Assembly: GCA_025361165.1 (NCBI GenBank)
Contig: JANYAU010000008.1
Coordinates: forward strand, 1-43,455
DNA length: 43,455 nt
DNA from: Betaproteobacteria bacterium
GTDB taxonomy: Bacteria; Pseudomonadota; Gammaproteobacteria; Burkholderiales; Thiobacteraceae
Reading direction: 5' to 3'
Within the stretch, counting starts at the first letter, position 1, and every line of letters starts with the position of its first letter. The position numbers were made by a program, and so were the translations under genes. Of the stretch, positions 35,960 through 41,439 are shown one piece after another. The notes under the pieces were generated by a model. It saw only the letters and a program-made list of their open reading frames with translations. It did no database searches and was not told the DNA's origin.

Positions 35960-37744
35960 ATGTGTGGCATTGCAGGTGAATTACGCTTCGATGGCATAGC
36001 GCCGGATAGCAGCATGATCGAACGCATGTTGGCGCAACTGGCGCGGCGCGGGCCGGATGCGGCAGGAACGCATATTGACGGCCCGCTCGCGTTCGGACAT
36101 CGGCGGTTGGCCATCATCGACCTCTCGCCGCGCTCGAATCAGCCCATGGTGGATACGGAGTTGGGCTTGGTGCTGGTCTTCAACGGCACTATTTACAACT
36201 ATCCGCAATTGCGCATTGAGCTTCAAGCGCGGGGTTATCGGTTTTTTTCCGACGGCGATACCGAGGTCATCCTCAAAGCCTATGCCGAGTGGGGCGAAGC
36301 CTGTGCCGAACATCTGCACGGCGCATTCGCCTTCGCCGTATGGAATCGCCGCGCGCAAACACTGTTTCTCGCGCGCGACCGGCTCGGCATCAAGCCGCTG
36401 TACTACAGCCAAGACGCGAAAGGTTTGCGCTTCGCTTCCAACACCCAGGCGCTACTGGCCGCGGGCGGCGTGGATACTACTATCGATCCCGTGGCGCTGC
36501 ACCATCAGTTCACCCTGCACGCCGTAGTACCCGCGCCGCGCACGATTTTGCAAGGCATTCGCAAACTCGCACCGGGCACGACGCTGACGCTGGACGCGCA
36601 CGGCAACGCCACCCCACGCCGCTATTGGCAACTGCGCGCACAGCGGCCCGCGACGGTACTCACCGAGCGCGAGTGGGTCGAGGCAATTCACGCGGCACTC
36701 AAAGCGGCGGTAAAAAAACGGCTGGAAATTGCCGATGTGAAAGTCGGTGTGCTGCTCTCAGGCGGGCTCGATTCGAGTTTGCTGGTGGCGCTTCTCGCCG
36801 AGCAAGGCGTGCCGGATTTGCTCACCTTCTCAGTGGGCTTCGAAGATCAACCGGAGGAACGCGGCCACGAATTCGAATACTCGGACGCAGTGGCAAATTA
36901 TTTCGGCACGCGCCATCATCAATATCGCATCGCCAACAGCGAAGTGCTGAAGCGCCTGCCGGAAGCCGTGGACAACATGGCTGAGCCGATGGTGAGCCAA
37001 GATGCAGTGGCGTTTTATCTGCTCGCCGAACAAGTATCGAAAACGGTGAAAGTGGTGCAAAGCGGTCAGGGTGCGGACGAAATTTTCGGTGGCTATTACT
37101 GGTATGCGCGCATGCAAGAAGATACCGCTGGCACGCCGCTGGAACGCTTCCGCCGCCACTATTTCGACCGCGATCACGACGAATATTTGCAAACCGTCAT
37201 GCCCGCTTACCACGGCCCGGACTACACCGCGCAGACCGTGAGCGCGCATCTGAGCGAGCCGCACGCGGACACCTTCCTCGATCAAGTGCTGCGCATGGAT
37301 GCCACCATGCTCATCACCGACGATCCGGTGAAGCGCGTGGATAACATGACCATGGCTTGGGCGCTGGAGGCGCGCGTGCCCTTTCTCGATCACGAACTGG
37401 TGGAACTGGCGGCGCAAATGCCGCCGGAACTCAAGCTGCAATCGGATGGTAAGCATGTGTTAAAGCGCATCGCGCGCGGCCTGCTGCCGGATATGGTGAT
37501 CGATCGCACTAAAGGCTACTTCCCCATGCCCGCGCTCAAATACGTGCGCGGCGAATTTTTAGATTTCATGCAAGATATTCTGAACTCGCGCGCCTGCCAC
37601 GAGCGCGGCATCTATCAACGCAGTTATGTAGAAAAACTCTTGGCCGCGCCAGAGCAATATCACACGCGCATCCAAGGCAATAAACTGTGGCACCTCGCGC
37701 TGTTGGAATATTGGTTGCAGCGCAATGTCGATGCGGCAAGGTAA
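35960..37744 (+). CDS. Asparagine-synthase-like amidotransferase, probable N-acetylglutaminylglutamine amidotransferase
   Basis: A 594-residue enzyme with an N-terminal class II glutaminase (catalytic Cys2) and a C-terminal ATP-pyrophosphatase domain (SGGLDSS 267-273). The whole-length pattern, notably HHQFTLHAVVPAPRTIL, SQDAVAFYLLAEQVSK, QGADEIFGGYYWY and PVKRVDNMTMAWALEARVPF, is that of the NAGGN amidotransferase family (TIGR03104 type), which makes the osmoprotectant N-acetylglutaminylglutamine amide, rather than classic AsnB. Its usual partner, the N-acetylglutaminylglutamine synthetase (ATP-grasp/GNAT), is not adjacent. The upstream gene is srkA with 14 bp between, AAAGGA preceding the ATG. 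Confidence 0.85.
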   Translation: MCGIAGELRFDGIAPDSSMIERMLAQLARRGPDAAGTHIDGPLAFGHRRLAIIDLSPRSNQPMVDTELGLVLVFNGTIYNYPQLRIELQARGYRFFSDGDTEVILKAYAEWGEACAEHLHGAFAFAVWNRRAQTLFLARDRLGIKPLYYSQDAKGLRFASNTQALLAAGGVDTTIDPVALHHQFTLHAVVPAPRTILQGIRKLAPGTTLTLDAHGNATPRRYWQLRAQRPATVLTEREWVEAIHAALKAAVKKRLEIADVKVGVLLSGGLDSSLLVALLAEQGVPDLLTFSVGFEDQPEERGHEFEYSDAVANYFGTRHHQYRIANSEVLKRLPEAVDNMAEPMVSQDAVAFYLLAEQVSKTVKVVQSGQGADEIFGGYYWYARMQEDTAGTPLERFRRHYFDRDHDEYLQTVMPAYHGPDYTAQTVSAHLSEPHADTFLDQVLRMDATMLITDDPVKRVDNMTMAWALEARVPFLDHELVELAAQMPPELKLQSDGKHVLKRIARGLLPDMVIDRTKGYFPMPALKYVRGEFLDFMQDILNSRACHERGIYQRSYVEKLLAAPEQYHTRIQGNKLWHLALLEYWLQRNVDAAR

Positions 37745-37762
37745 TTTAGCGAGGAGAGGTAT

Positions 37763-37780
37763 GGTGCTATACTTTGCACC
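37763..37780 (+). promoter_or_regulatory. Putative HicBA operator over the -10 box
   Basis: GGTGC (37763-37767) and GCACC (37776-37780) form an inverted repeat whose 8-base centre holds a -10-like TATACT (37768-37773), 33 bp before the first gene. Binding of the antitoxin-toxin complex there would block the promoter; this is inference from position. Confidence 0.55.
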
Positions 37781-37805
37781 AGCATGCTCTCGCCGGAGAT
37801 TCACG

Positions 37806-38012
37806 ATGAATGAGATTATTTTTCTTGTAGAAGAGTCACCCGAGGGCGGCTATACCGCGCGTGCCCTGGGCGAATCAATCTTTACCGAAGCAGACGATCT
37901 AGCGCAGTTGCATACGCGTGCCCGCGATGCGGTGTTATGTCATTTCGAGGCGGGCAATATACCTAAACTCATTCGGTTGCATTTCGTGAAAGACGAAGTT
38001 ATCGCCGTATGA
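37806..38012 (+). CDS. HicB-type antitoxin (small form)
   Basis: A 68-residue protein of the truncated HicB fold. EIIFLVEESPEGGYTARALG with SIFTEADDL and the IRLHFVKDEVI end is the typical pattern of the small antitoxins placed before hicA, sometimes wrongly named dehydrogenase subunits. No DNA-binding tail is seen beyond the HicB fold. ATG 37806 is preceded by GGAG. Its stop overlaps the hicA start by 4 bp (ATGA). Confidence 0.85.
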   Translation: MNEIIFLVEESPEGGYTARALGESIFTEADDLAQLHTRARDAVLCHFEAGNIPKLIRLHFVKDEVIAV

Positions 38013-38251
38013 AAGTGCCAAGAGATCTCTCCGGCGAGCAATTGATCAAAAAACTGGAGCGCCTTGGCTATAAGGTAACCCGGCAAACCGGAAGCCACAT
38101 TCGCTTAACTTGTGACAACCCTACACAACATCACATCACCATCCCCCATCACGACCCGCTCCGGCTGGGCACATTGAACAGCATTCTCGGCGACGTAGCG
38201 GCACAGCTTAAAATGACTAGGGATGAGTTGTTGCAGCGCTTATTCGGCTAA
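38009..38251 (+). CDS. hicA: HicA-type mRNA interferase toxin
   Basis: An 80-residue toxin with the double-stranded RNA-binding-like fold of HicA. The catalytic His30 sits in TGSHIRL, and the HHITIPHHDPLRLGTLNSIL stretch is the conserved core. It cleaves mRNA when not bound by HicB. The order antitoxin then toxin is reversed from the classic hicAB but usual for this subclass, and the two are translationally coupled. Confidence 0.9.
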   Translation: MKVPRDLSGEQLIKKLERLGYKVTRQTGSHIRLTCDNPTQHHITIPHHDPLRLGTLNSILGDVAAQLKMTRDELLQRLFG

Positions 38252-39542: not shown

Positions 39543-40097
39543 ATGCGCACAGCTTTAACAATAGGATGCTGCATGATCGTGATCGCGGCGCTCAGCGGCT
39601 GTGCCGGCCAGCGCTATCAAACCGTTTACCGCTACGAAGCGCCCACCGATGCCGCCGGTCGCGCATGCTTAGCAAGGTGCGAACCGAAGTTAGCCGCTTG
39701 CCAAACCGACTGCCAAGGTAAATATCAAGTCTGCCTCAAAGCCATCGAACCCACAGTGGAAGCCCGCTATAGCGACGCGCTCAAGCGCTACGAGGCTGAG
39801 CTGGAGCGCTATCGCCATGAACTCGATTTTTACCAACTACGTTCGTCGCTGGGCTGGGGCTACCATTTGGGGTATGGCCCCTGGCCCTACTACTACACCC
39901 CGTGGCCCGACCCTTATTATTTTGCCCCTACCCCACCGGATAAACCCAGCCGCGACAAACTATTCAAACAAGTGCGGCAAGAGAAATGTGAAAACGACTG
40001 TGGATGCCAGCCGATTTACGATGCGTGCTTCCTCACCTGCGGCGGCAAGAAAGTTCCGGAAGTGCAGTGCATCGCGCATTGTCCGAAGGACAAATAA
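39543..40097 (+). CDS. Cys-rich lipoprotein with CX3C pairs
   Basis: A 184-residue predicted lipoprotein (LSGC, Cys20). The mature part has 12 further Cys in a regular pattern: C42-x3-C46, C53-x3-C57 and C64 before a central helix, then C149-x3-C153, C155, C162-x3-C166 and C176-x3-C180. The centre has a coiled-coil stretch (about 70-98) and a Tyr/Trp/Pro-rich segment (100-130). The CX3C pairs suggest disulfide-braced helices. The last 30 codons are repeated at 41006-41113. No known family is recognised. Confidence 0.8.
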   Translation: MRTALTIGCCMIVIAALSGCAGQRYQTVYRYEAPTDAAGRACLARCEPKLAACQTDCQGKYQVCLKAIEPTVEARYSDALKRYEAELERYRHELDFYQLRSSLGWGYHLGYGPWPYYYTPWPDPYYFAPTPPDKPSRDKLFKQVRQEKCENDCGCQPIYDACFLTCGGKKVPEVQCIAHCPKDK

Positions 40098-40129
40098 ACT
40101 CGTTTATTCCATTTCACCGCAGGGAAATA

Positions 40130-40163
40130 TTGATTTTAATCAGACCAGTCTATATACTGGTCT
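40130..40163 (+). promoter_or_regulatory. Promoter and operator of the Phd/YefM-VapC module
   Basis: TTGATT (40130-40135) and TATACT (40153-40158) are 17 bp apart. A perfect 8-bp inverted repeat, AGACCAGT (40142-40149) and ACTGGTCT (40156-40163) with a 6-bp centre, overlaps the -10 box. This is the expected layout for antitoxin autoregulation. Confidence 0.8.
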
Positions 40164-40192
40164 ACATTAAGCTCGCATTGCAGGAGAAAATT

Positions 40193-40435
40193 ATGAAGAT
40201 CGAAATTGGTTCGTATGAAGCGAAAACAAAGCTTCCCGAATTGCTGCGTCAGGTTAAAACTGGCAAAAGCTTTACCATCACCAATCGCGGGGAAGCCATT
40301 GCGGATCTCGTGCCCAGCGCGGGCGTGAGGACGAAGGACAAAGTGGCGGCAGCAGAAAAACTTAAGGCATTCATGCTGGCCGATCCGGTGCGTGGTGTAA
40401 ACATCAAGGAACTCATTGAGGAGGGGCGTGCGTGA
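40193..40435 (+). CDS. Phd/YefM family antitoxin
   Basis: An 80-residue antitoxin and likely autorepressor. IGSYEAKTKLPELLRQVKTGKSFTITNRG is the YefM/Phd DNA-binding N-terminal domain; the C-terminal tail (ADPVRGVNIKELIEEGRA) would wrap the toxin. AGGAGA lies 5 bp before ATG 40193. Its TGA overlaps the toxin GTG by 4 bp. Confidence 0.92.
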   Translation: MKIEIGSYEAKTKLPELLRQVKTGKSFTITNRGEAIADLVPSAGVRTKDKVAAAEKLKAFMLADPVRGVNIKELIEEGRA

Positions 40436-40851
40436 GCTTCGTCCTGGATAACTCGGTGACCATGCGTTGGTTTTTTGGTGATGGCAAGCCACAAGAACTT
40501 GCCTATGCCGGAAAAGTGCTGGATGCGATGAAAAAGGCCAACGCACTTGTACCCGTGACATGGGGACTGGAGGTGGCAAACGTCATTGCCAAAGCGGAAG
40601 CAAAAACCTTGGTGACGGAAGCGCGGAGCGGGGCGTTTCTTGAGATGCTGGAAGGCGTAGATATTGAGGTGGACGCGGCCACATTCGCACACGCGCTGTC
40701 TGATACTTTGCAACTGGCGCGGCGATACAAGCTATCCGCTTACGATGCCTCTTACCTCGAACTGGCCTTAAGACTAGGCATACCGCTGGCCACGCTCGAC
40801 GAAGATTTGCAGAAGGCTGCAAAGAAAGCGGGTGTGAAAAAGTTTGCTTGA
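40432..40851 (+). CDS. vapC: VapC-type PIN-domain ribonuclease toxin
   Basis: A 139-residue PIN-domain nuclease. The acidic active site is visible: D6 in VLDNS, E47 in WGLEVAN, D105 in SAYDASYLE and D123 in TLDEDL. The start is GTG 40432, overlapping the antitoxin stop (GTGA), so translation is coupled. VapC toxins cut tRNA or rRNA. The pairing of a Phd/YefM antitoxin with a PIN toxin is common. Confidence 0.92.
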   Translation: MSFVLDNSVTMRWFFGDGKPQELAYAGKVLDAMKKANALVPVTWGLEVANVIAKAEAKTLVTEARSGAFLEMLEGVDIEVDAATFAHALSDTLQLARRYKLSAYDASYLELALRLGIPLATLDEDLQKAAKKAGVKKFA

Positions 40852-41005
40852 AATTCCAAATGGAATCTATTGCTGTCCAGCCGGTAAACAAGTGCGGGGT
40901 GGATTGAAGTTATGACAATCGGCGAGCGGAATGTCGCTTTGTAAGCTGACATTTGGCCCAGCCAATACACGTTAGGTTTCAGATGATCTCGTATCAGGAC
41001 GGAAC

Positions 41006-41113
41006 GAAAATGAGAGTGGATGCCAGCCGATTTACGACGCGTGCTTCCTTACCTGCGGCGGCAAGAAAATTCCGGAAGTGCAGTGCATCGCGCATTGTCC
41101 AAAGGAAAAGTGA
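41006..41113 (+). pseudogene. Second copy of the 3' end of the Cys-rich lipoprotein gene
   Basis: 41016-41113 is about 90% identical to 40000-40097, the end of the lipoprotein gene at 39543. It can encode CQPIYDACFLTC, KKIPEVQCIAHC and a PKEK end, then TGA. Most of the differences are silent (GAT/GAC, CTC/CTT, CCG/CCA) with only conservative changes (Val to Ile, Asp to Glu), so this copy was once under selection. The rest of the gene, including start and signal peptide, is missing, and a frame upstream is closed by TAG near 40972. Confidence 0.8.
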
Positions 41114-41439
41114 CGCTGCTTTTTCTGATTTAAAGCAGAATAAATCTTCCCGCCACGGAGTACCCGGAGGGCATGGAAGAAGTGAGATTCGTCGTACAGA
41201 TGGGCGACTTGTACGTGCTGCTTTGTGCGCCTGATAGAACCCAACTCCCAAAACGAATCAAGCGCCAAGAGGTTCGACATACTACTTGAGCTGGGTCTTT
41301 TGCAACCGCAAACCATGGTCGACGGTGGCAATAGAAGAAGAATCGTACTCTTACCCCTTGATAAAGCGGTCGCTGGCGAAGCCAGCGGGGGATTAGCGGT
41401 GGCCCTCCTTACCACAGCAAGTAGCATCCCAGCCTAGAA
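41114..41439. other. Intergenic stretch without a supported gene
   Basis: About 325 bp between the repeated lipoprotein end and the nitroreductase stop. The frames present (for example 41225-41437 on the plus strand) do not resemble any protein family, and none has a good ribosome binding site. A hairpin CGCTGGC GAA GCCAGCG (41370-41386) is present, with a loop of three bases and no T run. Possibly part of the decayed neighbour of the toxin-antitoxin cassette. Confidence 0.45.

Follow-up and report, generated by a model that had tools for sequence, protein, structure and literature searches.

We found a toxin-antitoxin module of the Phd/YefM-VapC type directly behind an intact Cys-rich lipoprotein gene, followed on its far side by a second, truncated version of the end of the same gene. 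Both lie in a window of 43,455 nucleotides, which is the whole stretch of DNA that was analysed. The best reading of this arrangement, which we hold with modest confidence and at somewhat better than an even chance, is an insertion of the module that did not depend on a transposase and that left a long duplication of the gene end. The features of the locus are collected in Table 1.

Table 1. Features of the lipoprotein gene, the module and the two gene-end copies (positions in the window)
Feature	Position	Strand	Basis or remark
Cys-rich lipoprotein gene, 184 aa, intact	39543..40097	+	ORF list; Pfam match sub-threshold only
Copy 1, the lipoprotein gene's own intact 3′ end	39990..40097	+	Repeat search and alignment
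Mobile toxin-antitoxin cassette, ~750 bp	40129..40879	+	DNA shared with other genomes in unrelated contexts
Putative operator palindrome, AGACCAGT-CTATAT-ACTGGTCT	40142..40163	.	Read in the sequence
Phd/YefM-type antitoxin, 80 aa	40193..40435	+	TIGR01552, 25.6 bits (cut-off 20.8)
VapC-like PIN-domain toxin, 139 aa	40432..40851	+	PF01850, 40.3 bits (cut-off 23.6)
Spacer between cassette and copy 2	40880..41005	+	Without match in relatives; contains a 12-bp in-frame lipoprotein piece
Copy 2, 5′-truncated lipoprotein gene end, own stop TGA, no start codon	41006..41113	+	

A repeat search of the window detected a direct repeat with 83% identity over 133 nt (39990–40122 and 41006–41138), within which local alignment of 39990–40093 with 41006–41109 gave 96/104 identical positions. 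The in-frame core (40001–40097 against 41017–41113) is identical at 90 of 97 positions (93%) and both copies end at a stop codon. Compared flank against flank, the pair reached a BLAST E-value of 2e-40, far above chance. On these counts the original prediction, that about 98 bp of the lipoprotein gene end recur with about 90% identity beyond the Phd/YefM-VapC module, was right. In the frame of copy 2, stop codons occur soon upstream, and copy 2 has no gene upstream of it. In addition, a 12-bp piece of the lipoprotein gene, AAACAAGTGCGG at 39966–39977, is found again without any difference at 40886–40897, 7 bp beyond the right border of the module, where it keeps the reading frame of copy 2. 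A 12-mer match to the lipoprotein gene was obtained in 0.17% of dinucleotide-shuffled spacers, a figure that belongs to a post hoc observation. This in-frame piece is suggestive of a copy 2 that may once have been ~130 bp long and was later interrupted by ~96 bp of unrelated DNA. A dispersed repeat was ruled out as the cause, since the lipoprotein gene matches its own genome only at copy 1 and copy 2.

The seven differences within the core comprise four silent ones (GAT/GAC, CTC/CTT, CCG/CCA and AAA/AAG), two conservative amino acid replacements (V/I from GTT/ATT and D/E from GAC/GAA) and one change from stop to stop at the matching position (TAA in the first copy, TGA in the second). When a drifting fragment was simulated against a constrained gene until seven differences had accumulated, zero non-conservative changes were seen in 0.8% of the runs (P=0.008). 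Because free drift gives such a pattern in less than 1% of the simulations, most of the divergence is, as judged from these codons, of the kind that built up while both versions were coding, which agrees with the earlier claim that the second copy had diverged as a coding sequence. With 93% identity and nothing but silent or conservative differences, the two copies appear to have had coding histories of their own. Compared with relatives, copy 2 has the common isoleucine and copy 1 an unusual valine; thus neither copy is simply the older one.

The genes of the module overlap by 4 bp, with the GTG start of the toxin overlapping the stop of the antitoxin. The antitoxin scored 24.3 bits against the Pfam Phd/YefM family PF02604, under the cut-off of 29.8, and the toxin gave profile matches to the Pyrobaculum PIN proteins PAE0151 and PAE2754. 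In an alignment of 18 toxin homologues, D6, D105 and D123 are invariant and E47 nearly so, and all four residues are present in this toxin. By its domains, the pair is a predicted type II toxin-antitoxin system of the Phd/YefM-VapC kind. The core of the palindrome that precedes it is also found upstream of distant homologues, with GGTCTATATACTGGTCT-like sites in 30/138 loci, and this retention suggests that the palindrome is probably an autoregulatory operator of the antitoxin/toxin promoter. Estimates of dN/dS were 0.065–0.083 for the toxin and 0.05–0.12 for the antitoxin; the toxin values suggest that the module has been kept as a working unit under strong purifying selection. It is worth mentioning that two small ORFs reading like HicB/HicA (MNEIIFLVEESPEGGYTARALGES... 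and MKVPRDLSGEQLIKKLERLGYKVTRQTGSHIRL...) lie ~2 kb upstream, at 37725–38251, and are probably a second toxin-antitoxin module.

The DNA of the cassette recurs in three genomes that belong to three other families of the same order, with identities of 90% in G323 (40129–40879), 84% in G329 (40130–40854) and 80% in G078 (40148–40851), and outside the module borders these loci share nothing with the present one. The neighbouring gene, in contrast, shares only 75–77% DNA identity with its same-genus orthologues. A module that is better conserved across families than its neighbour is within a genus is, by this comparison of identities, horizontally acquired, and the predicted horizontal movement of the cassette is thereby supported. 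The segment between the copies (40098–41005) holds the two toxin-antitoxin genes only and no ORF for a transposase, recombinase or integrase, in line with the claim that a transposase is lacking. Moreover, the repeat search revealed no inverted repeats framing the module, and the locus does not qualify as a transposon or an insertion sequence. A plasmid origin was considered and rejected, as module DNA had no match in 72,556 plasmids and all protein matches were below 60% identity.

Two further loci with related genes were noted. In another genome of the same genus (L023, 400–1084, in G004:C114), an antitoxin with 91% DNA identity is followed by a toxin reduced to its first 43 bp; this antitoxin is joined to a second Phd-like antitoxin near pilus-biogenesis-like genes, and it looks like a decaying module in another context. 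In G323 (L092, 4185–6400), a 94%-identical toxin has an AbiEi-like gene as its neighbour and is enclosed by copies of a dispersed repeat that resembles palindromic repeat elements.

Gene-end copies were also found around related modules elsewhere. The clearest case is the Nitrospira locus L144, where 157 bp containing the 3′ ends of both convergent neighbours are present on both sides of the module with 90% identity and either neighbour is intact on its own side; this is the pattern that a 157-bp target duplication would leave. In G259 the module follows an rfbH-like gene, 169 bp of whose end are found again behind the toxin with 84% identity, mostly silent differences and a small deletion. 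The sister genome G043 carries the rfbH gene without a Phd-VapC module; the G259 gene end before the module is 89% identical to that of G043, like the rest of the gene, and the copy behind the module 83.5%. At the spot of the G259 module, G043 has a different HTH-antitoxin-like gene after its rfbH-like gene (L103, 2797–3300), which makes the rfbH-like gene end a possible hot spot for insertions. In G592 it is the 5′ end of a coq7-like gene that is copied, over 67 bp with three silent differences. Next to a spermidine-synthase-like gene, straddling gene-end copies occur in two Nitrospira bins, L144 included, and these two hits may share one event; others were observed in a Kiruna bin, the bacterium RI_372 (copies 99% identical), Aquisphaera insulae JC669 and G324.

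These cases come from a small survey of 134 non-redundant loci, most of them, this one included, in fragmented draft assemblies; a scan of named genomes had added 80 loci. Direct repeats of at least 28 bp within 500 bp of the module straddled it at 11/134 loci, against 18/969 size-matched control holes taken from the same contigs (Fisher p=2.9e-4, an optimistic value because the control holes overlap one another and because the 11 include this locus, from which the search started). By inspection, which covered the module hits only, nine of the 11 are copies of neighbour gene ends, this locus included, and two (L137 and L228) are dispersed repeats. The repeats around G323 and L228 are dispersed and were left out of the gene-end count. 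A stricter automatic gene-end test gave only a borderline result, 7/108 against 5/220 (p=0.059), with some miscalled ORFs on both sides. An enrichment around related modules is likely, not settled. The original prediction had held that this locus shows how such a cassette integrates; this was too strong for a single locus, and what stands, given the recurrence, is that integration independent of a transposase is reasonable.

Other origins have to be weighed against insertion. Two full tandem lipoprotein genes may have existed, the second of which lost its 5′ part to the module, as the original prediction suggested, or to a later deletion. Such a history would explain why copy 2 diverged in the manner of a coding sequence and why a 12-bp remnant lies in frame further upstream, at 40886. 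The comparison with relatives speaks against it: among 399 genomes of the order that were searched, 20 others carry the lipoprotein, apparently in one copy each, and none of the 20 has a tandem paralogue or a partial copy (G007 gives two matches, but these are the parts of a single gene divided by an assembly gap). A scan of the named genomes with the lipoprotein gave no match. The module is absent at the orthologous lipoprotein gene in G001, G006, G007 and others; in G006 and G001 the order is an HI0933-like gene, the lipoprotein gene as here and then an ABC transporter gene. One gene and no second copy, the other state expected of relatives that lack the module, is hence what was seen in G006 and G001, and in G007 the gene is single but gapped. 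Since this history would also leave unexplained why gene-end copies of unrelated genes accompany related modules, we regard the truncation of a tandem paralogue as unlikely. A rearrangement junction is about equally improbable in our view, although some rearrangement did occur: the left flank is conserved, the DNA right of copy 2 lies beside the lipoprotein gene in no relative examined, and since the right flank differs in every one of them, the locus was also rearranged, which may have brought copy 2 to its place. According to this explanation, an inversion or translocation put a lipoprotein fragment and the nitroreductase gene behind the module, which is incidental. In fact, the nitroreductase gene, which lies after copy 2 here, has an ATP-grasp gene for a neighbour in G003, G005 and G007; two of these genomes, G003 and G007, have it ~20 kb upstream of their HI0933-like gene, with the relative orientation reversed; in G001 and G006 the place after the lipoprotein gene is taken by the ABC transporter gene. 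Yet an inversion with the module at the junction, suggested by the nitroreductase orientation, was rejected because no reciprocal junction was found; in the own genome the ATP-grasp gene adjoins a phosphoesterase-like gene, and the recurrence at other loci would remain without explanation. Separately, a ~40-bp sequence (CCACGGAGTACCCGGAGG...) at 41140–41181 recurs elsewhere in the genus, at several sites in other genomes and frequently close to an inverted partner, and looks like a small dispersed repeat.

The module may also be what is left of a larger integrative element with its attachment site at the gene 3′ end, all but the toxin-antitoxin genes having been lost. Prophage e14 of Escherichia coli sits at the 3′ end of icd and uses the icd end as attachment site, and a gene-end copy behind the insert together with a slightly different restored end is the classic signature of such elements. 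The locus resembles e14/icd in having an element at a gene 3′ end, an alternative end rich in synonymous differences and the displaced end on the far side. However, e14 is a prophage with an integrase and neither is seen here, the segment being without an integrase, and the related cases involve unrelated genes, lengths of 33–169 bp and one 5′ end, unlike the use of one attachment site; we therefore find this origin highly improbable. Slightly less probability still is given to an assembly artefact, a chimeric contig joining the lipoprotein ends of two strains. The window is indeed a contig of a 169-contig draft genome, but copy 2 breaks off at a unique spacer instead of continuing into a second full gene, the DNA of the module is independently present in other genomes and the pattern is also found in Aquisphaera insulae JC669, whose record is not labelled as a metagenome bin.

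Returning to transposase-independent insertion, a compact Phd/YefM-VapC cassette would have entered directly behind the lipoprotein gene by recombination and would have left two versions of the last ~100–130 bp of the gene, one on each side. The front gene would have stayed whole, with the version behind the module as a non-functional remnant. Because the copies differ only by changes that the gene tolerates, the second version most likely goes back to the end of a diverged homologue, brought in with the donor DNA or displaced by it, rather than to fresh copying; between a donor-carried homologue and a duplication in situ, we lean somewhat to the former. Two routes can be envisaged, neither of which requires a transposase. 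By the first, the module would enter with a long target duplication, and duplications would be seen at gene ends because only events sparing the neighbouring genes survive. By the second, donor DNA carrying the module beside a homologous gene end would recombine at that gene, and the foreign or displaced end would remain. The first route fits L144 and RI_372, the latter with 99% copies; the second fits G259 and this locus, with their coding-type divergence. A fresh target duplication should have given neutral changes in the fragment, whose absence here counts against the first route; we hold the second to be slightly more likely at this locus. We infer from the arrangement both the way in which recombination took place and that one version stems from the donor. 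As a doubtful generalisation, the Phd/YefM-VapC modules of this family may themselves be minimal mobile units, whose entry at gene ends makes a duplication of 30–170 bp, needs no transposase and leaves the neighbours whole, in parallel to restriction-modification systems.

The spread of small chromosomal toxin-antitoxin pairs without a visible mobile element is poorly understood, and a recurrent scar, in which part of a neighbouring gene's end reappears beyond the module, would be a readable trace of entry. Within the accessible part of the literature, no description was found of toxin-antitoxin modules flanked by gene-end copies. In Microcystis aeruginosa PCC 7806, a ParE/ParD-like module lies beside MaOC1 with 152-bp direct repeats (PMC7935541). 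As here, a toxin-antitoxin pair is located just downstream of a gene and surrounded by long direct repeats; unlike here, the Microcystis repeats are identical and begin 14 bp past the stop codon, outside the coding end of the gene, and the toxin family differs from the PIN toxin of this locus. For restriction-modification systems, PMC3874152 (citing Nobusato et al. 2000 and Furuta et al. 2010) describes insertion with a long and variable target duplication of ~100 bp. The likeness lies in an addictive two-gene cassette that is present in some genomes and absent from others, without a transposase, and in the long, variable direct target copies, of the order of 100 bp, that flank it. The cargo here is different, being a Phd/YefM-VapC pair; the copies differ by silent and conservative changes, and the relatives examined showed no uninterrupted site with the two flanks. 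If confirmed as recurrent, such scars would tie the entry of toxin-antitoxin modules to the insertion of restriction-modification systems, the addictive character being common to both.
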